Source: Actinomycetota bacterium (lineage in GTDB: Bacteria > Actinomycetota > Thermoleophilia > Solirubrobacterales > Solirubrobacteraceae). Taken from it: a DNA stretch of 64,000 bases. The translations under genes were made by a program, and so were the position numbers. Of the stretch, positions 13,237-29,901 are shown one piece after another (position 1 is the stretch's first letter; each line of letters opens with the position of its first letter). Location of the stretch: assembly GCA_018268595.1 (NCBI GenBank), contig JAFDWH010000001.1, positions 1 through 64,000 on the forward strand, written 5' to 3'. The notes below the pieces were generated by a model. That model did not search any database, was not told where the DNA came from, and saw nothing but the letters and a program-made list of their open reading frames with translations.

Positions 13237-13263
13237 AAAAGCCTGCATTTGCAGGCTTTTTTT
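13237..13263. terminator. Strong rho-independent terminator
   Basis: AAAAGCCTGC and GCAGGCTTTT form a perfect 10-bp stem with an ATTT loop and a run of seven T. The A-run on the other side lets it work in both directions. It ends the transporter transcript on the plus strand. On the minus strand it lies just 3' of the CCCCCGCTATA motif of the adjoining repeat, the position of a tRNA terminator. Confidence 0.9.
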
Positions 13264-13338
13264 ATAGCGGGGGAACGATTCGCCGCCATTAGCGACCGGC
13301 GGATCCCCGTAGAAGTCGCAGTTCCGTGGCCGACGTAA
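13263..13338. repeat. tRNA-3'-end-like dispersed repeat, type B, copy 1
   Basis: The repeat starts TATAGCGGGGGAACGATTCG and runs through CCATTAGCGACC, then GGATCCCCGTAGAAGTCG and TTCCGTGGCCGACGTAA. The same sequence with a few changes is at 17210-17244 (left half only), 21138-21210 and 26669-26743. This copy marks the left edge of the accessory island. Confidence 0.75.
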
Positions 13339-14675: not shown

Positions 14676-14784
14676 CTCGAGAGTCTAATTCCCGCCACTC
14701 ACAGGCGGACCGCGATGAACCGCTCGCGACCACGACTCCCAAGATCGAGGATCAAGACCCGCCCCGTCCGTGTCGATATGCTAA

Positions 14785-14802
14785 GTGTTCCGTAGGAAAA
14801 AC
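14785..14802 (+). promoter_or_regulatory. Putative AbiEi operator overlapping the ribosome site, copy 1
   Basis: GTGTTCC-GTAG-GAAAAAC is an imperfect 7-bp inverted repeat six bases before the ATG at 14808. It covers the AGGA ribosome site. The second module carries a perfect version at 26802-26819, and the surrounding TATGCTA...CGTAGGAAAAACTTG is also conserved. AbiEi proteins are known to repress their own operon by binding inverted repeats. Confidence 0.5.
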
Positions 14803-14807
14803 TTGTC

Positions 14808-15521
14808 ATGAAGGTTCCGGGATCAGAGAGCACAGCAGAGCAGGTTCGTCGCCGAGTAGTGGCCGGCGGGGAGCGCTTCTGGCGTCACGAGGACTTCGAG
14901 GGCCTGTCGCCTTCGGGCGTCGCGACGACGCTGTCGCGTCTGGCCCGCGAGGGTGAGCTGCAGCGTGTGCGCAAGGGCGTCTACTTCCGCCCGCGCCAGA
15001 CTGTGATCGGCCCGAGCATCCCGGGCGCCACCGCGGCGATCGCCAGCTCTCTGCGTACCCCGATTCACCCTGCAGGCTTGTCGGCTGCCAACGTGCTCGG
15101 TCTCTCGACGCAGAATCCGGCGCGAGGAGAGTTCGCCACGCCAGCGAGTGATCCGCCAACCGCGCTCGCGGGAAGCCGGGTCCGCACCCGTCGGCCGCGT
15201 TCCCGGGCGACGCTGACCTCAGAGGAGGGCGCGCTGCTCGAGCTGCTGCGCGATCGCGCCACGACGTCGGATCTCGCACCCGCCGAGACGGCGCAGCGCT
15301 TGCAGGAGCTGCTGAGCGACGGCGAGCGCTTCGCGCGCCTCGCCCAAGCGGCGTCAGAGGAGCCTCCGCGCGTGCGAGCGATGCTCGGCGCGCTCGGCGA
15401 GCTCGCAGGCGCCGAGGAACAGCACGTGCGTGCGCTGCGCAAGAGCCTGAACCCACTCTCGCGCTTCGACTTCGGCATGCTCTCGACGCTGCCCAACGCA
15501 CGAGACTGGCAGGCGAAGTGA
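14808..15521 (+). CDS. AbiEi-like antitoxin, module copy 1
   Basis: A 237-residue protein with an N-terminal winged-helix domain (about 20-65: GGERFWRHEDFEGLSPSGVA ... RKGVYFRPR), as in AbiEi-type antitoxin/transcriptional repressors. The C-terminal half, expected to bind the toxin, is helical. In type IV systems AbiEi counters the AbiEii nucleotidyltransferase without direct inhibition and autoregulates. The stop overlaps the toxin start (GTGA at 15518-15521). It is close in sequence to the copy at 26825-27541. Confidence 0.75.
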   Translation: MKVPGSESTAEQVRRRVVAGGERFWRHEDFEGLSPSGVATTLSRLAREGELQRVRKGVYFRPRQTVIGPSIPGATAAIASSLRTPIHPAGLSAANVLGLSTQNPARGEFATPASDPPTALAGSRVRTRRPRSRATLTSEEGALLELLRDRATTSDLAPAETAQRLQELLSDGERFARLAQAASEEPPRVRAMLGALGELAGAEEQHVRALRKSLNPLSRFDFGMLSTLPNARDWQAK

Positions 15522-16474
15522 AGCTCTGCGAACACCCAGACTTCGCGGCACTCGTGGTCGCCACCGCACAGGCGAACGGTCTCAACGAGCAGTTCGTGGA
15601 GAAGGACTACTACGTCACCGAAGTGCTGCGAATCGTCGCTGAGGCCTACGGCGCGAAAGTGATCTTCAAGGGCGGGACGAGCCTTTCGAAGGGCTGGGCG
15701 CTGATCGACCGCTTCTCCGAAGACGTCGACCTGTTCGTCGACCCCGCCCGCTTCAACCCGCCACTGCAGGGAGCCCGCGCCATCGACCGCGAGCTGCGCA
15801 CGCTGCGCGATCTTGTCGCTGGGCACCCTGGGCTCGATCTCGTGCCGGAGCTCCGGCAGACGATCGGCGGTCGCGGCCGCGCCGATCACCTCGCCTACGT
15901 CACCCGCTTCGACGCGCTGCCCGGTGTTGCGAGCACCGTCCGCCTCGAGCCCGGCGTCCAGAGCGGCGACCACCCCGTAGAGCGGCGAACTATCGAATCG
16001 CTCATCGCCGTGTTCCTGCGCGAGCAAGATCAGACCGATGTCGCCGAGGATCTCGAACCGTTCGAGATGACCCTGCTGCACTTCCGGCGCACGTTCGTCG
16101 AGAAGCTCTTCACGATCCACTCGAAGGTCATGCGACTGCTCGAAGACGGCACGCCGGTCGCCCGCGACGCCCGCCACTATGCGGACCTGCACGCGCTCGC
16201 CAGCCGCCCAGAAGTCCTGGCCATGCTCCAATCCGACGAGTACCGGGAAATTCGCGACGACTACGACGAACTCAGCTCCCAGTGGTTCCCACGGGGCCAC
16301 CGACCGCCGGCGGGACTCAGCTTCCGGCAGAGCCCCGCACTCTTCCCGCCCGCCCAACTCCGCGAACAGCTCGCCGCCGACTATGCCTCGCAGTGCGAGC
16401 TGCTGTTCCCTGGCGACTTCCCATCGTTCGCAGCCGTGCTCGGGAGCTTCGAACGTCTGCGGGAATGGCTCTGA
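15518..16474 (+). CDS. AbiEii/AbiGii nucleotidyltransferase toxin, module copy 1
   Basis: A 318-residue protein of the nucleotidyltransferase fold. VIFKGGTSLSKGW (residues 48-60) and FSEDVDLF (66-73) are the GG(T/S)xxxK...(E/D)DxD active-site motifs of AbiEii-like toxins, which transfer nucleotides to tRNA or other targets and stop growth. It starts with GTG inside the antitoxin stop; copy 2 uses ATG at the same place. The 3' end overlaps the start of a third gene, which is unusual for a two-gene AbiE system. Confidence 0.85.
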   Translation: MKLCEHPDFAALVVATAQANGLNEQFVEKDYYVTEVLRIVAEAYGAKVIFKGGTSLSKGWALIDRFSEDVDLFVDPARFNPPLQGARAIDRELRTLRDLVAGHPGLDLVPELRQTIGGRGRADHLAYVTRFDALPGVASTVRLEPGVQSGDHPVERRTIESLIAVFLREQDQTDVAEDLEPFEMTLLHFRRTFVEKLFTIHSKVMRLLEDGTPVARDARHYADLHALASRPEVLAMLQSDEYREIRDDYDELSSQWFPRGHRPPAGLSFRQSPALFPPAQLREQLAADYASQCELLFPGDFPSFAAVLGSFERLREWL

Positions 16475-17157
16475 TGAAAGAGCGCTCCGACTTCGAGGAG
16501 GCGCTCTCCGCGGTTCAGGCCTTCGGCGCCGGTGCCGCGCTGACAGCGCGAATCGCAGACCTCGAGACACGCCTCCAAGGCAAGACGCGGCGCAAGGCCG
16601 CCACCCTCCTCGCCGATGACCACGTCGATGAGACCGCACTCAGCGGAGCACTGACGATCAAGCGTCTCAGCGCCCAGATCGACGTCGTCATCCACGCGCT
16701 TGGGATCCTGACCTCGCTCCCGTACGTGCTCGAGCCCGGCGAGGTCATCGAGTCCCTCTCACTCGGAGCCGGCAACACCGGCCGCCAACACGACCTCGAA
16801 ACCGACCGCCAGATCGCCGAGTTCAAGTTCATCCAATGGCGCGGCGGACCAGAGTCCATCCGCCAGAACAACGTCTTCATCGACATCTTCAACCTCGCCA
16901 ACGCAAGAACGAAGAAGCGACGCGTCCTCTACCTGCTCGACAAGCACCACGCACTCCGCTTCCTCGGCAATCGGCGCGCGATCCCAAGTGTGCTGAGCAA
17001 AAATGCCACGGTCCACGACCAGTTCCAGGCCGCGCATCAGGACAAGTTCGCGACCGTCCACGAGTACTGGGCCACCGTGCAGGACCTCATCGAGATCGTC
17101 GACCTCCGGGACATCGTGCCGGCCTTCAGCAGAACGATGTCCGACGACGTGACGTGA
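16465..17157 (+). CDS. PD-(D/E)XK nuclease-like third component of the AbiE module, copy 1
   Basis: A 230-residue protein without a name I can assign. Residues 1-65 are helical. Residues 70-140 show a helix (AQIDVVIHALGILTSLPYVL), an E-rich strand (GEVIESLSLG), D110/D114 and then AEFKFIQW with E119 and K121, followed by a helix with Gln. This is the order of the restriction-endonuclease-like D...ExK core. The start at ATG 16465 (ATG GCT) is conserved in copy 2 and overlaps the toxin gene by 10 bp; ATG 16474 is an alternative. Nuclease activity is inference. It is coupled to the toxin and was duplicated together with it. Confidence 0.6.
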   Translation: MALMKERSDFEEALSAVQAFGAGAALTARIADLETRLQGKTRRKAATLLADDHVDETALSGALTIKRLSAQIDVVIHALGILTSLPYVLEPGEVIESLSLGAGNTGRQHDLETDRQIAEFKFIQWRGGPESIRQNNVFIDIFNLANARTKKRRVLYLLDKHHALRFLGNRRAIPSVLSKNATVHDQFQAAHQDKFATVHEYWATVQDLIEIVDLRDIVPAFSRTMSDDVT

Positions 17158-17159
17158 GC

Positions 17160-17244
17160 TGTACCCAGAGGCCCTGCGAAATGACCTCTCTACATGGGGG
17201 AGGTGCTTCTATAGCGGGGGAACGATTGGGTCCCATTAGCGACC
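17160..17244. repeat. Module-end repeat plus tRNA-like repeat type B, copy 2
   Basis: The left part (TGTACCCAGAGGCCCTGCGA, then ATGACCTCTC...GGGGGAGGTGCTTC) follows directly after the nuclease-like gene and contains a CCTC/GAGG hairpin. The right part (CTATAGCGGGGGAACGATTG ... CATTAGCGACC) is the type B core. After GCGACC the similarity to the other copies ends. The rest of 17245-17419 shows nothing recognisable apart from the start region of the next TA pair. Confidence 0.75.
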
Positions 17245-17419
17245 GTAGCGTGATGGTCGAGCGCCACGTCAGATGGGAGCAGAATCGCCGATGACCGCGG
17301 GAGAAGTGACGGCCGCAGCCGGCGCCGCGAGACGCTCGTCGCGCGGCGCACGTCTTCCTTGCCGTGCCACCGCAACCCAGCAGATGCATGCGCCCGCTGG
17401 TCGCGCTACCGTTGGTTGC

Positions 17420-17656
17420 ATGACTGCGAAGGAGCATCTGAGAACGGTCGTCGGCGAGCTCTCCGAGCACGAGGCGGCCGACACGCTCGCGTTCATCGCT
17501 CGCCGACGCGACGCGCTCGGCGAGCTGCTCGCGTCCGCCCCGGTCGACGACGAGCCGACGACGCCCGACGAGGACGCAGGCACAGCCGAGGCGCGCGCGC
17601 AGATCGCACGTGGCGAGGTGTTCTCCGCCGAGGACATCCGCCGCGAGTTCGCGTGA
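17420..17656 (+). CDS. Antitoxin-like protein of a second TA type
   Basis: A 78-residue acidic protein (MTAKEHLRTVVGELSEHEAA ... EVFSAEDIRREFA). The helical N-terminus and the C-terminal tail, typical of toxin-wrapping segments, suit an antitoxin, but no DNA-binding fold can be named with certainty. The stop overlaps the toxin start (GTGA, 17653-17656). The start is ATG 17420, with a TACCGT hexamer about 7 bp upstream, which may indicate a leaderless mRNA. It is unrelated to the TA pair at 443-988. Confidence 0.7.
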   Translation: MTAKEHLRTVVGELSEHEAADTLAFIARRRDALGELLASAPVDDEPTTPDEDAGTAEARAQIARGEVFSAEDIRREFA

Positions 17657-17928
17657 GCGATCCCGGCGGCTGGACCGGCGGCTGGAGCTTCACCGCACGC
17701 GCCCGCCGTGACATGCGCAAGCTCGACCGGCCCGTGCAACGCCGCGTGATCGAGGCGCTCGACCGACTCGTCGCGGAGCCGCCGCAGGGCGATGTCGTCA
17801 AGCTCGCCGGCGTCGACGAGGAATGGCGTCTGCGCGTCGGCGATTGGCGCGTACGCTTCACCCGCGACGACCACGGCATCGTGCAGGTACTGCGCGTCTT
17901 GCCACGCGGCCGCGCCTACGATCGCTGA
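17653..17928 (+). CDS. RelE-like toxin
   Basis: A 91-residue toxin of the RelE family. It shows FTARARRDMRKLDRPVQRRV, then VKLAGVDEEWRLRVGDWRVRF and the last strand IVQVLRVLPRGRAYDR. Basic residues and the terminal R..AY..R pattern match RelE-type mRNA interferases that act in the ribosomal A site. It starts at GTG 17653 overlapping the antitoxin stop. Confidence 0.9.
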   Translation: MSDPGGWTGGWSFTARARRDMRKLDRPVQRRVIEALDRLVAEPPQGDVVKLAGVDEEWRLRVGDWRVRFTRDDHGIVQVLRVLPRGRAYDR

Positions 17929-21041: not shown

Positions 21042-21089
21042 TCTCGATCAGAGCGCAGGCAATCGCGCTGACGCCTCGGCATGACGCCC

Positions 21090-21210
21090 TGTACCCAGAG
21101 ACACGCGAGATGGACCTCTCTGTTGGGGACGTAGTCCCTTAGCCAGGGAACGATTCGGTCGCATTAGCGACCGACGGATTGCCGTAGAAGTCGGGGGTCC
21201 GTGGCCGACC
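21090..21210. repeat. Module-end repeat plus tRNA-like repeat type B, copy 3
   Basis: It reads TGTACCCAGAGACACGCGAG, then GGACCTCTCTGTTGGGGACG (diverged), then AGCCAGGGAACGATTCGGTC, GCATTAGCGACC and the right half GGATTGCCGTAGAAGTCGGG...TCCGTGGCCGACC. The TAGCGGGGG block has decayed to TAGCCAGGG. It separates the caspase-like pair from the secreted-protein/GH30 segment. In the surrounding gap 21042-21534 I see only this repeat and the small ORF at 21352. Confidence 0.7.
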
Positions 21211-22319: not shown

Positions 22320-25079
22320 CTAGTGACAAGTCGCCCAGATCCCGTTGAGGTCCGGGAGCTGATTGAGCTCCCATGACGTGAGGACGTCCGGCCCCGGCAT
22401 CCCGTGGCTCTTCAGGCAGTTGTAGGTGGCAGCGTCGGCGATCCAGCGCCGATGCCCGTCCGAGCCCACCAGCCACGCGGTCTTCTGCGTATTGGGGTCG
22501 TTGTCCCACTGGACGATGTGGCCGACGTAGCGGCTCGGCGGCCCCTCGCTCGTCCAGACGTAGCCGCCGGCGGCGTTGTAGAGCGCGAGCTTGCCGTCGT
22601 CGCGCACGACGAGCCATGCGGCGCCGGACCCCACGGTCCCGCTCGCCCACACCGCCGTCCCGCTGGCGTACTCGACGAGGTTTCCATCCCCCTGCAGCAC
22701 CAGTTCGTCGCCGCCCCGGCCGGTCGACCACACGACGCGGCCCGACGTGTCGGTCAGCATCAGGTCCGAGCCGCTGAGCGTCAAACGGTACCGGCCGCCG
22801 CCGGACTGGGCGTAGAGCCCCGTCTGCAGCATGCTGTTCACGCCGATCCGGTCGACCCCGCAGACCGCCCAGACGCCGTTGAGATCCGGCATCCGGTCGA
22901 GCTCCCACGAGGTCAGCACGTCCGGCCCGGGCGCCCCGCGGCTCTTCAGGCAGTTGTACGTCGCGATGTCGGAGATCCAGCGCCGATGGCCGTCCGGGCC
23001 GACCAGCCATGCCGTCCTCTGGGCGTTGGGGTCGCTGTCCCACTGCACGATGTGGCCGACGTAGCTGCTCGGCGGCGCCTCGCTCGTCCAGGCAAGCTGG
23101 CCGGCGCCGTTGTAGAGCGCGAGCTTGCCGTCGTCGCGCACGACGAGCCACGCCGACCCCGACCCGACGGTCCCGCTCGCCCACACCGGCCGCCCGCCGG
23201 CGTACTCGACGAGGTTTCCATCGCGCTGCAGCACCAGCTCGTCGCCGCCGCGGCCCGTCGACCACACGACGTGCCCGCCAGCGTCCGTCAGCGCAAGGTC
23301 GGAGCCGCTGAGCGACAGCCGGTATCGGCCGTTGTGCGACTGGGCGTAGAAGCCGGTCTGCAAGATGCTGTCGACGCCGATCCGATCCGCGCCACACACC
23401 GCCCACACGCCGTTGAGGTCGGGCAGCGCGTCGAGCTCGCCAGCGGAGAGAACGTCGGGCCCCGGCGCTCCGTAGCGCTTCAGGCAGTTGTAGGTCGCGA
23501 TGTCGGAGATCCAGCGCCGGCGCCCGTCCGGCCCCACCAGCCACGCCGTTCTCTGCCGCTTCCTGTCGCCGGCCCACTGCACGATGTGGCCGCGGCGGTC
23601 GACATGGCGAACAGCGGTGTTGACCGCCACCACCACGATCGTCCCGTCGGGGTTGCGGAAGGCGACCGTCTCGATCGACCCGTCGCCCGGGTCGCTCGAC
23701 CCGATCCGCACCGCGCCGGGCGCGACGAACTTCGAGAAATGCGCCCAGTAGTAATAGTCCTCGCTGGGCTGATAGGCGCCCGTCGCACGGTCGATCGCGA
23801 TCATGCCGCGGCAGTCGCCGCAGCCGCCGACGTGGGGACCGCCGTCGGACCCGAGCGCGAGGCTCCAGTACAGCGAGGTGCGCGCCCAGTTGACGATCGG
23901 CCCGATGAGCGCGTTGCGCACCTCCCACACGAGGTTCTCGGAAGCGTTCGGCGCCGCGGTGAAGCCGCTGCACTCCGTCATGTAGATGGCGGTTCTCGGG
24001 TGGTCGCGGTGGAACTGCGACTGGACCGCAGGCCCGCTCTGATGGGGCCCCGTGCCGTCGTAGCAGTGGTAGCCGATCGCGTCGACGCGGCCGCCGTCGG
24101 CCAGCAGGGTGTCCGGGTAGCTCGCCGCCCGGCCGCCGTCATACCAGTTGTGGTCCCATCCAAGGATGCGGACCGAGCCCAGCCCGGCGGCGTCCAGCGC
24201 GGTGCGCAGGTCGCGCGAGAGCCTCGCCTCCTGGTCCGGCTCCAGGTTCATCGTCGCGTACGAGGCGTTGCAGTTGTGCGGCTCGTTCTGCAGCGAGACC
24301 ATGCGGACGGGGAGGCCGTAGCCGCTGCGGTACGCCGTGACGAACTTCGTGATGTATTGCGCGTAGACGCCATACAGCGAGGGGTCGAGCGTGTTGGACC
24401 CGCAGGTTCCGTGGAACGACCGACCGGTCTTCATCCACGCCGGCGCGCTCCACGGCGTGCCGAGCAGCGTCAGGTCGGGGCGCAGACGGTGCGCCTCCTG
24501 CAGCAGCGGGACGATGCTCACCGTGTCGTGCGCGACCGAGAAGGCGCTCAGGCTCGGGTCGGCGATCCCCGGCAGCAAGGTGTCGTAGTCGTAGTCCTCG
24601 GTCGCGAGGTCCGACGCGCCCATCGGCACCCGCACGAAGCGCAGACGCGCACCGGAGGAGCCGAACAGCGCGTTCATGATCGCGTCGCGGTACGGGGAGG
24701 CGGCGATCAGCGCGGCGGCGGAGTCGGTCATCGCGCCGCCGAACCCCGCCATGTGCTGATACGTCGCGCCCGCGTCGACGCCGACGACGCGGCCGACGCC
24801 GCCGGGCGTCGTCGTAGGCAGGTCGGGCTGGCGCTCGAGACGCTTCTCGAGCACGGACCCGACGGCGGTCGTCAGCCACTCGTGAACCACGCCGTGGTCG
24901 GGCGCCCACAGGTACGTGGCGACCGAGCTGGGGGGCAGCGCGGTGTCGAATACCGCGCCCGCCCCGCGAACCTGGAACGGAGTTCCAGCGTCCGCTCTCG
25001 ACGCGGCGATCGGCAGCAGGAGCAGCCCGCACGCAAGCAGCGTCACCCGCCGTGAACGACTCACCAGCCTTCGCCGCAT
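22320..25079 (-). CDS. Secreted GH30-like glycosidase with alternating repeat and lectin domains
   Basis: A 919-residue secreted enzyme. Residues 1-31 are a signal peptide. Residues 95-490 are a glycoside hydrolase family 30-like TIM barrel plus side beta domain: GFGGAMTDS, acid/base E266 in LQNEP and nucleophile E369 in YMTECSG. Residues 497-918 alternate three 65-residue units (GHIVQW ... TAWLVGPDG ... ATYNCLK ... PDLNGVWAVC, at 497-562, 675-740 and 853-918) with two bulb-lectin (B-type mannose-binding) domains (about 570-670 and 750-850: GGDELVLQRDGNLVEY). The enzyme probably binds and cuts a glucan, xylan or glycolipid outside the cell. It is divergent from a ROK regulator. Confidence 0.8.
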   Translation of the reverse strand: MRRRLVSRSRRVTLLACGLLLLPIAASRADAGTPFQVRGAGAVFDTALPPSSVATYLWAPDHGVVHEWLTTAVGSVLEKRLERQPDLPTTTPGGVGRVVGVDAGATYQHMAGFGGAMTDSAAALIAASPYRDAIMNALFGSSGARLRFVRVPMGASDLATEDYDYDTLLPGIADPSLSAFSVAHDTVSIVPLLQEAHRLRPDLTLLGTPWSAPAWMKTGRSFHGTCGSNTLDPSLYGVYAQYITKFVTAYRSGYGLPVRMVSLQNEPHNCNASYATMNLEPDQEARLSRDLRTALDAAGLGSVRILGWDHNWYDGGRAASYPDTLLADGGRVDAIGYHCYDGTGPHQSGPAVQSQFHRDHPRTAIYMTECSGFTAAPNASENLVWEVRNALIGPIVNWARTSLYWSLALGSDGGPHVGGCGDCRGMIAIDRATGAYQPSEDYYYWAHFSKFVAPGAVRIGSSDPGDGSIETVAFRNPDGTIVVVAVNTAVRHVDRRGHIVQWAGDRKRQRTAWLVGPDGRRRWISDIATYNCLKRYGAPGPDVLSAGELDALPDLNGVWAVCGADRIGVDSILQTGFYAQSHNGRYRLSLSGSDLALTDAGGHVVWSTGRGGDELVLQRDGNLVEYAGGRPVWASGTVGSGSAWLVVRDDGKLALYNGAGQLAWTSEAPPSSYVGHIVQWDSDPNAQRTAWLVGPDGHRRWISDIATYNCLKSRGAPGPDVLTSWELDRMPDLNGVWAVCGVDRIGVNSMLQTGLYAQSGGGRYRLTLSGSDLMLTDTSGRVVWSTGRGGDELVLQGDGNLVEYASGTAVWASGTVGSGAAWLVVRDDGKLALYNAAGGYVWTSEGPPSRYVGHIVQWDNDPNTQKTAWLVGSDGHRRWIADAATYNCLKSHGMPGPDVLTSWELNQLPDLNGIWATCH

Positions 25080-26474: not shown

Positions 26475-26495
26475 CCCTGCGCGGAGCGGCGCTCA

Positions 26496-26620
26496 ACATC
26501 AGGACGAGTTCGCAACCGTCCGCGAGTACTGAGCACCGTCGAGGACCACGTCGAGATCATCGACCTCCGCGACCTCGTGCCGGCGTTCAGGAGCACGATG
26601 TCCGCCGGCCAGTCGCGGGA
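26496..26620 (+). pseudogene. 3' remnant of a third copy of the nuclease-like gene
   Basis: About 125 bp match the last part of the nuclease-like genes ending at 17157 and 29176 (CATCAGGACGAGTTCGC ... GACCTCGTGCCGGCGTTC). A one-base deletion at GTACTGAGCACC and loss of the stop codon make it non-functional. It is followed, like the full copies, by the TGTACCCAGAG repeat. The rest of the module is missing, so the ROK/GH30 segment seems to have replaced it. Confidence 0.75.
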
Positions 26621-26743
26621 TGTACCCAGAGACCCCTGAAATGACCTCTCTATAGGGGGAGGTGCTTCCATAGCGGGGGAACGATTCGGTCCCATTAGCG
26701 ACCAGTGGATCGCCGTGGAAGTCGGGGTTCCGTGGCCGCCGTA
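26621..26743. repeat. Module-end repeat plus tRNA-like repeat type B, copy 4
   Basis: This is the most complete copy: TGTACCCAGAGACCCCTGAA, ATGACCTCTCTATAGGGGGA (hairpin CCTCTC/GGGGGAGG), CATAGCGGGGGAACGATTCG, GTCCCATTAGCGACC and GGATCGCCGTGGAAGTCGGG ... TTCCGTGGCCGCCGTAA. It lies between the remnant and the second AbiE module. The gap 26475-26824 is filled by the remnant, this repeat and the AbiE operator. Confidence 0.8.
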
Positions 26744-26801
26744 ACCCGCGATCAGGCCACGTTCCGACCGCCGGAAGAATGCCGCTTGAAGTATATGCTA
26801 T

Positions 26802-26819
26802 GTTTTTCGTAGGAAAAAC
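26802..26819 (+). promoter_or_regulatory. Putative AbiEi operator overlapping the ribosome site, copy 2
   Basis: GTTTTTC-GTAG-GAAAAAC is a perfect 7-bp inverted repeat with a four-base spacer, six bases before the ATG at 26825. A TATATGCTATG just upstream can serve as the -10. Compare the imperfect site at 14785-14802. Confidence 0.55.
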
Positions 26820-26824
26820 TTGCC

Positions 26825-27541
26825 ATGAAGACGGGATCGAGACCAGCGAGCGTGGCCGCGCAGGTTCGCCGACGGGTGCTCACCGGCGGCGAGCGCTTCT
26901 GGCGTCACGAGGACTTTGCGGGTCTGTCGCCTTCGGGCGTCGCAACCGCGCTGTCGCGCCTTGTCCGCGACGGTGAGCTGCAGCGCGTTCACAAAGGCGT
27001 CTACTTTCGCCCGCGGGCGACCGTGATCGGTCCCAGCGTTCCCGCGGCCAGCGGGGCCACCGCGGCCTCGCTGCGTTCCCCGCTGCATCCGGCGGGCCTC
27101 TCGGCCGCCAACCTGCTGGGCCTCTCCACGCAGAACCCAGCACGGAGCGAGTACGCGACGTCGGCGAGCGATCCACCAACCGCGCTCGCAGGGAGCCGGG
27201 TCCGTACTCGACGGCCACGGGCACGAGCTGGCCTGACCGCCGAGGAGGGAGCCCTGCTCGAGCTGCTGCGCGATCGTGCATCAACGTCGGACCTCCCGCC
27301 CGCCGAGACAGCACGCCGGCTCCAAGACCTGCTTCACGACCGCGAGCGCTTCGCGCGTCTCTCCCGCGCTGCGACGCAGGAGCCTCCCCGCGTGCGAGCG
27401 ATACTCGGAGCCCTCGGCGAGCTCACGGGCGCCGAGGAGCAACATGTGCGCGAGCTCCGCGCGAGCCTGAACCCGCTCTCGCGCTTCGACTTCGGCGTGC
27501 TCTCGACGCTGCCCAACGCGCGAACCTGGCAGGCGAAATGA
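26825..27541 (+). CDS. AbiEi-like antitoxin, module copy 2
   Basis: A 238-residue paralogue of the protein at 14808, nearly colinear. The winged-helix region GGERFWRHEDFAGLSPSGVA and the tail LNPLSRFDFGVLSTLPNAR are conserved. Changes are spread along the gene, so the copies are not a very recent duplication. The stop overlaps the toxin start (ATGA at 27538-27541). With two close AbiEi copies, cross-regulation of both operons is likely because the operators are similar. Confidence 0.75.
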   Translation: MKTGSRPASVAAQVRRRVLTGGERFWRHEDFAGLSPSGVATALSRLVRDGELQRVHKGVYFRPRATVIGPSVPAASGATAASLRSPLHPAGLSAANLLGLSTQNPARSEYATSASDPPTALAGSRVRTRRPRARAGLTAEEGALLELLRDRASTSDLPPAETARRLQDLLHDRERFARLSRAATQEPPRVRAILGALGELTGAEEQHVRELRASLNPLSRFDFGVLSTLPNARTWQAK

Positions 27542-28494
27542 GACTCTGCGAACACCCAGACTTCCCCGCGCTGCTGGTCGCGACCGCACAGGCGACCGGC
27601 TTGAACGAGCAGTTCGTGGAGAAGGACTGCTACGTCACCGAGGTGCTGCGGATCGTCGCCGACGCCTACGGCGAGAAGGTGATCTTCAAGGGAGGGACGA
27701 GCCTCTCGAAGGGCTGGGCGCTGATCGACCGCTTCTCCGAAGACGTCGACCTGTTCGTCGACCCCGCCCGCTTCGACCCGCCACTGGAAAGCGCCCGCGC
27801 CGTCGACCGCGAGCTGCGCATGCTGCGCGATCGGGTCGCCAGGCAGCCTGGGCTCGATGTCGTGCCTGAGCTCGGCCAGACGATCGGGGGTCGCGGCCGT
27901 GCCGATCATCTCGCCTACGTCACCCGCTTCGACGAGCTGCCCGGGGTCGCGAGCACCGTCCGGCTGGAGCCCGGCATCCAGAGCGGCGATCACCCGGTCG
28001 AGCAGCGGGCGATCGACTCGCTCGTCGCCGCGTTCCTGTGCAAGCGAGGCCAGAACGACATCGCCGAGGATCTCGAACCGTTCGAGATGACCCTGCTGCA
28101 CTTCCGGCGAACCTTCGTCGAGAAGCTCTTCACGATCCACTCGAAGGTCATGCGGCTGCTGGATGACGGCACCCCGGTCGCGCGCGACGCGCGCCACTAC
28201 GCCGACCTACACGCACTCGCAAGCCGCCCCGAAGTCCTCGCCATGGTCCAGTCCGACGAGTACCGGGAGATCTGCCGCGACTACGACGCGCTCAGCTCCC
28301 GGTGGTTCCCCCGCAGCCACCGGCCACCAGCGGGACTGAGCTTCCGTGAAAGTCCGGCGCTCTTTCCCGCAGCCGACCTCCGCGAGCAACTCGCGGCCGA
28401 CTACGACACGCAGTGCGCGCTGCTGTTCCCCGGCGACTTCGCATCCTTCGTCGACGTGCTCGGAAGCTTCGAGCGTCTGCGGCGATGGCTGTGA
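27538..28494 (+). CDS. AbiEii/AbiGii nucleotidyltransferase toxin, module copy 2
   Basis: A 318-residue protein, the same length as copy 1, with KGGTSLSKGW and RFSEDVDLFVDPARF intact. One change is EKDYYV to EKDCYV near residue 31. The toxin looks functional. It ends 10 bp inside the start of the third gene, as in copy 1, so the overlap is conserved. Confidence 0.85.
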   Translation: MRLCEHPDFPALLVATAQATGLNEQFVEKDCYVTEVLRIVADAYGEKVIFKGGTSLSKGWALIDRFSEDVDLFVDPARFDPPLESARAVDRELRMLRDRVARQPGLDVVPELGQTIGGRGRADHLAYVTRFDELPGVASTVRLEPGIQSGDHPVEQRAIDSLVAAFLCKRGQNDIAEDLEPFEMTLLHFRRTFVEKLFTIHSKVMRLLDDGTPVARDARHYADLHALASRPEVLAMVQSDEYREICRDYDALSSRWFPRSHRPPAGLSFRESPALFPAADLREQLAADYDTQCALLFPGDFASFVDVLGSFERLRRWL

Positions 28495-29176
28495 CCGGAC
28501 ATCGCTCCGACATCGAGGAGGCACTCACCGCAGTTCAAGCCTTCGGCGCGGAACCAGCACTGACGGCGCGGATCGCAGGTCTGGAGACGCGCCTTCAAGG
28601 CAAGACACGCGACAAGGCCACCGCGCTGCTCACCGCCGACAAGATCGACGAGACGGCACTCAGCGGAGCGTGACGATCAAGCGCCTCAGCGCCCAGATCG
28701 ACGTCGTCATTCACGCGCTCGGGATCCTGACCTCTCTTCCCTACCTCCTCGAGCCCGGAGAGGTCATCGAATCCCTCTCACTCGGCGCCGGCAACACCGG
28801 CCGCCATCACGACCTCGTGACCGATCGCCAGATCGCCGAGTTCAAGTTCATCCAATGGCGCGGCGGACCGGAGTCGATTCGTCAGAACAGCGTGTTCGTC
28901 GACATCTTCAACCTCGCGAACGCGAACACGAACAAGCGACGCGTCCTCTACCTCCTCGACAAGCAACACGCGCTCCGCTTCCTCGGTAACCGGCGCGCGA
29001 TCGCAAGCGTGCTCAGCAAGAACGCCAGCGTCCAGGCCAGGTTCCGCGTGGCACATCAGGACGAGTTTGCGACCGTCCGCGAGTACTGGGCCACCGTCGA
29101 GGACCGAGTCGAGATCATCGACCTCCGCGACCTCGTACCGGCGTTCAAGCGCACGAGGTCTGACAACCAGTCGTGA
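28485..29176 (+). pseudogene. Nuclease-like third component, copy 2, frameshifted
   Basis: This is the same protein as at 16465-17157, but one base is missing near 28666-28673 (GCGGAGCACTGACG in copy 1 becomes GCGGAGCGTGACG). Translation from ATG 28485 therefore stops at 28671-28673 after the helical N-terminus. The remaining frame keeps the whole D...AEFKF core (HDLVTDRQIAEFKFIQW) and the C-terminus to 29176. It is either a pseudogene or a miscalled base. The good conservation after the break suggests that the break is recent. Confidence 0.75.
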
Positions 29177-29178
29177 GC

Positions 29179-29265
29179 TGTACCCAGAGGCCCTGCGAAA
29201 TGACCTCTCTATAAGGGGGAGGTACTTCCATAGCGGGGGCGGGTTTTGAACACCAACCCGCGACC
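29179..29265. repeat. Module-end repeat plus tRNA-like repeat type A, copy 2
   Basis: The left part is TGTACCCAGAGGCCCTGCGA with ATGACCTCTCTATAAGGGGG. The right part is CATAGCGGGGGCGGGTTTTG ... AACACCAACCCGCGACC, with the GCGGGTT/AACCCGC hairpin. It joins the end of the AbiE module to the second copy of the RHH/RelE-ParE operon. Confidence 0.75.
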
Positions 29266-29354: not shown

Positions 29355-29606
29355 ATGGCCAGCCGAATCAATCTCTCGCTGGACCCCGAGTACTCCGAGA
29401 AGCTCTCGCGGCTCGCCGAGCGGATGCATCTCCAAGAGGGCACGCTCGCCAAGTCCCTCCTGTCGACGGCCCTCGACGGCGCAGACCCCGACGCCGCACA
29501 CATCGTGCAACTCCTCGACGGCATCCCCGGCGCCTACGAGCGCACGCAAGAAGGCATCGCGCAGGCCCGGCGCGGCGACGGCATCTCGCTCGACGACCTC
29601 GCATAG
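29355..29606 (+). CDS. Ribbon-helix-helix antitoxin, TA pair copy 2
   Basis: 83 residues, differing from the product of 443-694 only at one V/I position near the C-terminus (GDGISLDDLA). ATG start after GTAGGGTAGGGG. Its near identity means that either antitoxin should neutralise either toxin. See copy 1 for the domain description. Confidence 0.85.
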   Translation: MASRINLSLDPEYSEKLSRLAERMHLQEGTLAKSLLSTALDGADPDAAHIVQLLDGIPGAYERTQEGIAQARRGDGISLDDLA

Positions 29607-29610
29607 CCGG

Positions 29611-29901
29611 TTGCCCCGCGTCATCGTCACGCCGCGCGCAGTCGCCGACCTCGGTGAGCTGATCGAGACGCTCGGCCTGCCCGCAAACGCCCTCCGACGC
29701 GTCCAGACCTCACTGCGGATCCTGAAACGCTTCCCGCTCGCCGGCCGTGCGCTGACCGGCGCCTGGGAAGGCACCCGCTTCCTCATCGGCCCCTGGCCCT
29801 GGCTGATCCTCATCTACCTCCACGATGAGCAAGGCGACGCCGTCTACGTCGTCGCCGCACACGACGGACGCGGCTCCTCCGCAGCCACCAACGCCCGCTG
29901 A
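29611..29901 (+). CDS. RelE/ParE-superfamily toxin, TA pair copy 2
   Basis: 96 residues with a few conservative changes from the toxin at 698-988 (for example LRILKRF for LRVLERF, and YVVAAHDG for YIVAAHDG). TTG start, four bases after the antitoxin stop. This pair marks the right edge of the accessory island; the OsmC gene that follows is on the other strand. Confidence 0.85.
   Translation: MPRVIVTPRAVADLGELIETLGLPANALRRVQTSLRILKRFPLAGRALTGAWEGTRFLIGPWPWLILIYLHDEQGDAVYVVAAHDGRGSSAATNAR

Follow-up and report, generated by a model that had tools for sequence, protein, structure and literature searches.

A genome of the Actinomycetota (NCBI GenBank assembly GCA_018268595.1) carries two copies of an AbiE toxin-antitoxin operon in which a third gene, here called T, overlaps the end of the toxin gene. 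Both copies lie in the window examined here, which is the stretch of 64,000 nucleotides (nt) at positions 1 to 64,000 of contig JAFDWH010000001.1. We consider it moderately probable that T is a nuclease-like, portable add-on from defence islands, captured in this lineage by the AbiE operon, and that it is not a fixed part of AbiE. The three-gene unit was seen only in this genome, as two copies plus a remnant of T. The first copy has the following features.

14776-14813, + strand: upstream segment common to both modules, copy 1 (direct repeat, 89% over 38 nt)
14808-15521, + strand: AbiEi antitoxin, copy 1 (237 amino acids, aa); PADLOC AbiEi 7.6e-40; Pfam DUF6088, AbiEi_3_N and AbiEi_4 above cut-off
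15518-16474, + strand: AbiEii nucleotidyltransferase toxin, copy 1 (318 aa); Pfam PF08843 1.6e-26; PADLOC AbiEii 4e-59; motif hGGx15DhD
16465-17157, + strand: T, copy 1 (230 aa with a start at 16465, 227 aa with the ATG at 16474); predicted to be PD-(D/E)XK-like

By sequence, the first two genes are ordinary members of the AbiE type IV toxin-antitoxin group. Specifically, an AbiEi-family gene stands directly upstream of AbiEii and overlaps it by 4 nt (GTGA), and AbiEii copy 1 scores 94.1 bits against PF08843, for which the curated cut-off is 22.5. Motifs I and II of the toxin, hG[G/S]x15DhD with the motif II arginine, are present in both copies as GGTSLSKGWALIDRFSEDVD at residue 52. At the likely place of motif IV (+DxxD), inspection of the translation by eye shows only R-H-Y-A-D. 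In passages of Dy et al. (2014; PMC3985639), AbiE is bicistronic with a 4-nt gene overlap, in keeping with the first-pass annotation, which had treated AbiE as a two-gene type IV system. By analogy with the AbiEi autoregulation described there, the segment at 14776-14813 is likely the promoter and AbiEi operator region. MenT proteins, which are related nucleotidyltransferase toxins, modify tRNA according to PMC10435456, and the AbiEii of this module could act on tRNA in the same way.

The three overlapping open reading frames (ORFs) of the first-pass annotation, AbiEi-like, AbiEii-like and a third, are indeed present at 14808-17157, all on the + strand, with overlaps of GTGA and 10 nt. The 10-nt overlap between AbiEii and T holds when T starts at the ATG at 16465 and is uncertain, as the second ATG, at 16474, reduces it to 1 nt. 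This second ATG and the GTG at 28491 in copy 2, which gives a 4-nt overlap, match the starts of T relatives better. The junction pattern ATGGCTNTGA, which was derived from the two junctions themselves, is found within the window only at these junctions, with 0.11 chance matches expected.

Relatives of T were found at 71 genome loci, on 3 viral contigs, in 9 plasmid records (8 of them fetched) and in 3 further genomes, and 85 related T loci were examined. AbiEi and AbiEii lie directly upstream of T in none of the 85. Seen from the side of the toxin, 7 further genomes in the order and a further 5 in the phylum sample have a relative of the AbiEii of the window; one is common to both sets, which gives 11 loci. 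The eleventh ends 35 nt after AbiEii, and T follows AbiEii in none of the 10 with more than 1.2 kb visible downstream. Thus, the three-gene unit is known only from this genome, and these T and AbiE loci provide no instance of T recurring with AbiEi-AbiEii in other lineages. Nor was a third AbiE component found in the literature, as represented by titles and abstract openings, open-licence papers and passages of PMC9519451.

AbiE genes do occur near T in other arrangements. A tblastn search with the AbiE genes of the window matched 4 of the 85 T loci (L024, L031, L043 and L044), all about 2.2 kb downstream of T, and only AbiEi was matched in L043 and L044. At L028, AbiEii adjoins T convergently on the other strand, whereas at L042 it lies about 3.2 kb upstream of T, with an opposite-strand gene and a partner of class A (see below) between them. 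AbiEii is therefore inside four fetched loci (L024, L031, L028 and L042) and directly upstream of T in none, as checked by coordinates and reading frame. At L072 and L074, AbiEii may lie about 4.5 kb upstream of T if the same contig is assumed. A PF08843 profile search of the genomes and records behind 81 loci detected AbiEii somewhere in 26 of 50 and in 17 of 30 of them; the other three T genomes yielded no AbiEii relative.

The window contains a second module, which shares 84% DNA identity with the first across 2448 nt, a stretch reaching from the segment that precedes AbiEi to the repeat that follows T. Its features, together with those of a T remnant nearby, are as follows.

About 26491-26610, + strand: degraded remnant of another T gene (its 3' end), about 17 nt after a ROK gene and upstream of copy 2
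26793-26830, + strand: upstream common segment, copy 2 (direct repeat)
26825-27541, + strand: AbiEi, copy 2 (238 aa), 82% identical to copy 1
27538-28494, + strand: AbiEii, copy 2 (318 aa), 85% identical to copy 1; PF08843 2.4e-27
28485-28673, + strand: first part of T copy 2, frameshifted (62 codons ahead of a TGA)
28670-29176, + strand: T copy 2, second part (168 codons, in another frame), 83% identical to T copy 1

The gene order and overlaps that had been noted as recurring at 26825-29176 are there, but the third gene is split. Near 28671, copy 2 lacks one base that copy 1 has, which creates the TGA at 28671-28673 and rules out an intact T in both copies. The second part opens with the GTG at 28670, again forming a GTGA overlap, in this case with the TGA of the first part. 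At near-invariant position 112, T copy 2 carries V. The ratio of nonsynonymous to synonymous substitution rates (dN/dS) between the modules is 0.18 for AbiEi and 0.20 for AbiEii; the two parts of T give 0.27 and 0.23. The low values for T indicate that its protein was maintained by selection during most of the divergence of the copies, and the frameshift is probably recent.

The first-pass annotation had taken the third protein for a component of the AbiE system. In a dedicated three-component system of this kind, T would be an effector or sensor that needs AbiEi and AbiEii. Such a system would explain the overlapping starts, the presence of the three genes in both modules as one unit that ends just after T, and a constraint on T similar to that on the AbiE genes. 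We nevertheless regard it as unlikely, given that neither the 85 T loci nor the 10 AbiE loci show the pairing and that AbiEi and AbiEii of copy 2 remain open reading frames although T is broken there. The count of T genes that follow AbiEi-AbiEii with overlapping starts is zero among the related loci, and T is usually found away from AbiE; a general three-gene AbiE system is thus not supported.

A survey of the upstream genes shows T with other partners. Among the 82 loci with a settable T start (L006, L044 and L066 were left out for want of one), 39 have an ORF that ends within about 80 nt of that start and 43 do not; for loci from the genome search, only 1.5 kb of flank is visible. The partners fall into the following groups, with identities taken from one scanned representative per class.

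Class A, 13 loci: 485-613 aa, about 511 aa (one 121-aa fragment); L035 matches Mrr_cat at 0.0062 near its C-terminus, below cut-off
Class B, 10 loci: 173 aa (178 and 200 aa in two); L013 matches PADLOC PD-Lambda-3_A at 1e-18
Class C, 2 loci: 206 aa; L025 matches SRAP at 7.9e-25
Class D, 2 loci: an unknown protein
Class E, 2 loci, with a 9-nt gap: L072 matches ADP-ribosylglycohydrolase at 3.7e-38
Single cases, 10 loci: several doubtful ORFs; the one at L060 is a type III restriction-like protein

Classes A through D are unrelated to each other, and in all 27 of their loci the partner overlaps T. The overlap is 4 nt at the chosen start in 20 of these loci, 4 nt at a TTG in 5, and longer in 2. 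On a tree of T proteins, the upstream label changes at least 12 times. The partners also occur without T. Of the 36 plasmid records found to have a class B relative, 30 were listed and 5 of these are T records, while none of the 10 records with a class A relative is one; no T was seen near the partner in 7 loci chosen from records without a T match. In a Bacteroidetes contig (L073:40-735), a gene 9 nt before T has a C-terminus like that of what we take to be a restriction-modification methylase.

As a separate observation, the T gene behind a class B (173-aa) gene on a Sinorhizobium medicae plasmid (L014) is frameshifted too, and T is thus broken in a second lineage.

These data also bear on a simpler possibility, that T is an independent defence gene that merely uses the AbiE promoter and has no functional link to AbiEii. 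In favour of such a passenger are the many different partners, the lack of any adjacent upstream gene at 43 of 82 loci (some of them fragments), and the loss of T in copy 2. The overlap of T with the upstream stop codon in 27 of 27 loci, across four unrelated partner classes, suggests instead that co-production is favoured. We consider the passenger explanation possible, if doubtful.

No Pfam or NCBIfam model matches T above its curated cut-off; the single row listed, at 0.12, belongs to an NCBIfam model that is unrelated. In PADLOC and PHROGs, T has no match at E-values up to 1. A sequence search of the Protein Data Bank (PDB) with T gives no useful match, and the T profile gives one row, the chain Syn-F4-Link at 0.0063. 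Single T relatives have weak, unrelated matches, of which the best are DUF2997 in Pfam (0.0029) and mREase_IV in PADLOC (0.0094).

An AlphaFold model built from an alignment of 44 T proteins has a mean predicted local distance difference test score (pLDDT) of 92.2 and a predicted template modelling score (pTM) of 0.89. Its secondary structure elements, as assigned by DSSP, are H73-88, E95-98, E111-113, E116-121, H131-145 and E152-157, an order that we take to be the alpha-beta-beta-beta-alpha-beta core of PD-(D/E)XK enzymes. In the model, D110 falls at the second strand, and the third has E119-x-K121, where the catalytic residues of such a core belong, and residues 1-68 form an N-terminal helical part of their own. 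Among the top 16 rows from VIA-align, which re-examines Foldseek candidates and does not speak against families absent from its list, Z ranges from 4.9 to 5.9 and HindIII is best at 5.9. Ten of these rows belong to restriction enzymes or nickases (HindIII, BspD6I and BbvCI), four are Cdn1, Card1, Can1 and LmuA, and two are others. We assume that Cdn1, Card1, Can1 and LmuA are all nucleases of the PD-(D/E)XK fold. Viral protein structures compared with the model give a best E-value of 0.37. Searches that used no sequence pattern (tblastn against plasmids, and whole genomes) gave 12 loci, of which 11 keep D110, E119 and K121; one of the 11 is frameshifted, and the twelfth is a degenerate fragment. 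The model therefore supports the proposal of the first-pass annotation that the third protein is nuclease-like, with E119 and K121 at the expected place in a predicted PD-(D/E)XK-type core.

Eight actinobacterial T proteins (L015, L056, L067, L076, L077, L080, L081 and L082) have an extra N-terminal stretch in common, PEPIxEHWxxxxxxxYPPKQxYQLxxxxPRxxxTSHxALxxLR. The three that were scanned (L015, L056 and L076) have no Pfam family above cut-off.

Alternatively, T might be no nuclease at all, and might instead keep the product of the gene before it in check, as immunity proteins and antitoxins do. Its place behind several toxin-like or nuclease-like genes is a common site for such proteins. The conserved positions of T are those of a catalytic site, AbiE already has its own antitoxin, a single immunity protein would find no sequence similarity among the partner classes to recognise, and relatives of the partners occur without T. 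For these reasons we judge an immunity role very improbable.

The surroundings of T are rich in defence genes. Neighbours of T match 72 PADLOC families at an E-value of 1e-15 (130 proteins scanned of 226, from 32 mainly actinobacterial loci), and the 25 of the 72 that were listed include DNA methylases, SduA, LmuA, REase_III and Old. A control of 20 arbitrary stretches from six phylum genomes (119 of 147 proteins) gives 5 families, recorded as mad3, WYL twice, C3a206 and Cas3c. Both counts are of families, not proteins, and were obtained with a crude gene caller and with control genomes unmatched by genus. Annotated neighbours of T on plasmids are AbiH, AbiV, TIR, a TrlF-like ATPase and a restriction endonuclease.

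T is present in 4 of 396 phylum genomes, this one included, with no match in the other 392, which rules out a housekeeping gene. The first-pass annotation had allowed that the third protein could prove to be of an unrelated housekeeping family, and neither this distribution nor the defence-rich neighbourhood bears that out. Within the order, 2 of 232 genomes carry T, again including this one, and the T of the other is locus L051; these 232 genomes, at least 6 of them of the genus of the window, were searched directly, whereas other collections may omit close relatives. Phage records contained no T. In a quick tree, the T of the window is placed on the side made up mainly of alphaproteobacterial proteins and apart from actinobacterial T, but its branch is long and the tree tool warns of false joins, such that the exact place is unsure.

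Each T copy in the window, as well as the remnant, is followed by a repeat element.

17159-17244 (or 17150-17255), + strand: repeat element directly after T copy 1
26621-26703, + strand: repeat element after the T remnant
29178-29239 (or 29172-29239), + strand: repeat element directly after T copy 2

The element is about 40-105 nt long, is always on the + strand, and stands just after the ends of genes, both the T copies and others. It is found also at 13260-13298 and 21089-21173 of the window and at 75594-75653 of the same contig. A search at E-values up to 1 finds it at 6 places in the genome, all on one contig. An Rfam search of window positions 10000-40000 gave no match, and the folding of one copy that follows T showed nothing unusual (z -0.55). 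Each AbiE-T module is also followed by a ParE-like toxin gene with a small preceding gene (17273-17928 and 29355-29901); against PF05016, one of these toxins scores 9.7e-11, over the cut-off, and the other 4.9e-4, just below it. A glycosyl hydrolase family 30 gene at 22320-25079 on the - strand has three 300-nt copies with a spacing of 534 nt in its 3' part.

The gene order, the overlaps, the differing partners, the defence neighbourhoods, the predicted fold with its conserved D/E-x-K residues and the constraint on T were all computed, and cleavage by T, its target, the route of its capture and doubling, and its co-regulation by AbiEi are inferred. In the explanation that we favour, T would be a PD-(D/E)XK-like protein that is portable, belongs to bacterial defence islands and recurrently comes to lie behind unrelated genes, several of them of defence type, where the overlap of its start with the stop of the partner would cause both proteins to be made together. 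An ordinary AbiEi-AbiEii operon of this lineage would have captured T, and the resulting unit (upstream region, AbiEi, AbiEii, T and 3' repeat) would then have come to be present twice, with T breaking in one copy. AbiEi would repress the whole operon until infection or stress relieves this repression, whereupon AbiEii would block growth as a nucleotidyltransferase and T, as a second effector, would cut nucleic acid. It is possible that T cooperates with AbiE, and T may benefit from control of the operon by AbiEi.

Several points weigh against this explanation. With regard to structure, a Foldseek search of the PDB finds nothing significant for the T model, the two best rows being the restriction enzyme EcoO109I at E-values of 0.17 and 0.24, and VIA-align Z values below 8 may reflect a mere common arrangement and are no proof. 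The nuclease activity of T is a prediction, and the genome scan required the pattern [VI]AEFK[FLV][ISA][QR]W, which imposes conservation of E119 and K121 and may have missed divergent T proteins. With regard to partners, the 27 overlaps belong to four classes, within each of which they share descent, and represent far fewer than 27 events, and the 12 label changes count the absence of a partner as a label and are possibly inflated. The 43 loci scored as lacking a partner include fragments (L016 and L079), a locus with a class B gene (L014), and two at which T begins close to where the stored DNA ends (36 nt away in L031 and 83 nt in L070). Finally, co-regulation of T by AbiEi is likewise extrapolated, and the presence of the whole unit in both copies is also expected of a true three-part system.

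A broader generalisation is that T is a plug-in effector, an undescribed PD-(D/E)XK family translationally coupled to whichever sensor or toxin lies upstream (AbiE, PD-Lambda-3_A, Mrr-like or SRAP). We put this forward tentatively and think it rather less probable than not. If true, coupling would place T under infection-dependent control, and one nuclease would serve many unrelated triggers. An exchangeable T would make it possible to examine directly by what means defence modules exchange effectors, and whether the stop-start overlap is the joint at which they do so. It would also point to a compact family that carries no label in the searched libraries and that detection tools would miss, as they list only its upstream partner.

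Among known systems, AbiE is the closest to the operon as a whole. The modules described here share with it the gene order, the 4-nt overlap of AbiEi and AbiEii, an AbiEi-type antitoxin and the AbiEii motif hGGx15DhD, and they differ by the third overlapping gene, which is absent from the other AbiE loci examined.

The phage defence system PD-Lambda-3 of E. coli works by abortive infection, according to passages of PMC13190303. In 10 loci, T is overlapped by a 173-aa gene whose representative (L013) matches the A protein of this system. T itself matches no PD-Lambda-3 model, and homologues of the A protein occur without T on enterobacterial and Xanthomonas plasmids. We considered T as the second PD-Lambda-3 protein and rejected this, as no such model is among the four PADLOC families matched by the 44 T proteins at E-values up to 1, assuming that PADLOC includes a model of that protein.

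Lastly, T differs from the PD-(D/E)XK nucleases, represented by HindIII, N.BspD6I, Card1/Can1 and the Lamassu protein LmuA, in that its sequence matches no named family, its Z values are only 5 to 6 and it has N-terminal helices of its own. It resembles them in the predicted topology of its core and in the placement of D110 and E119-x-K121.

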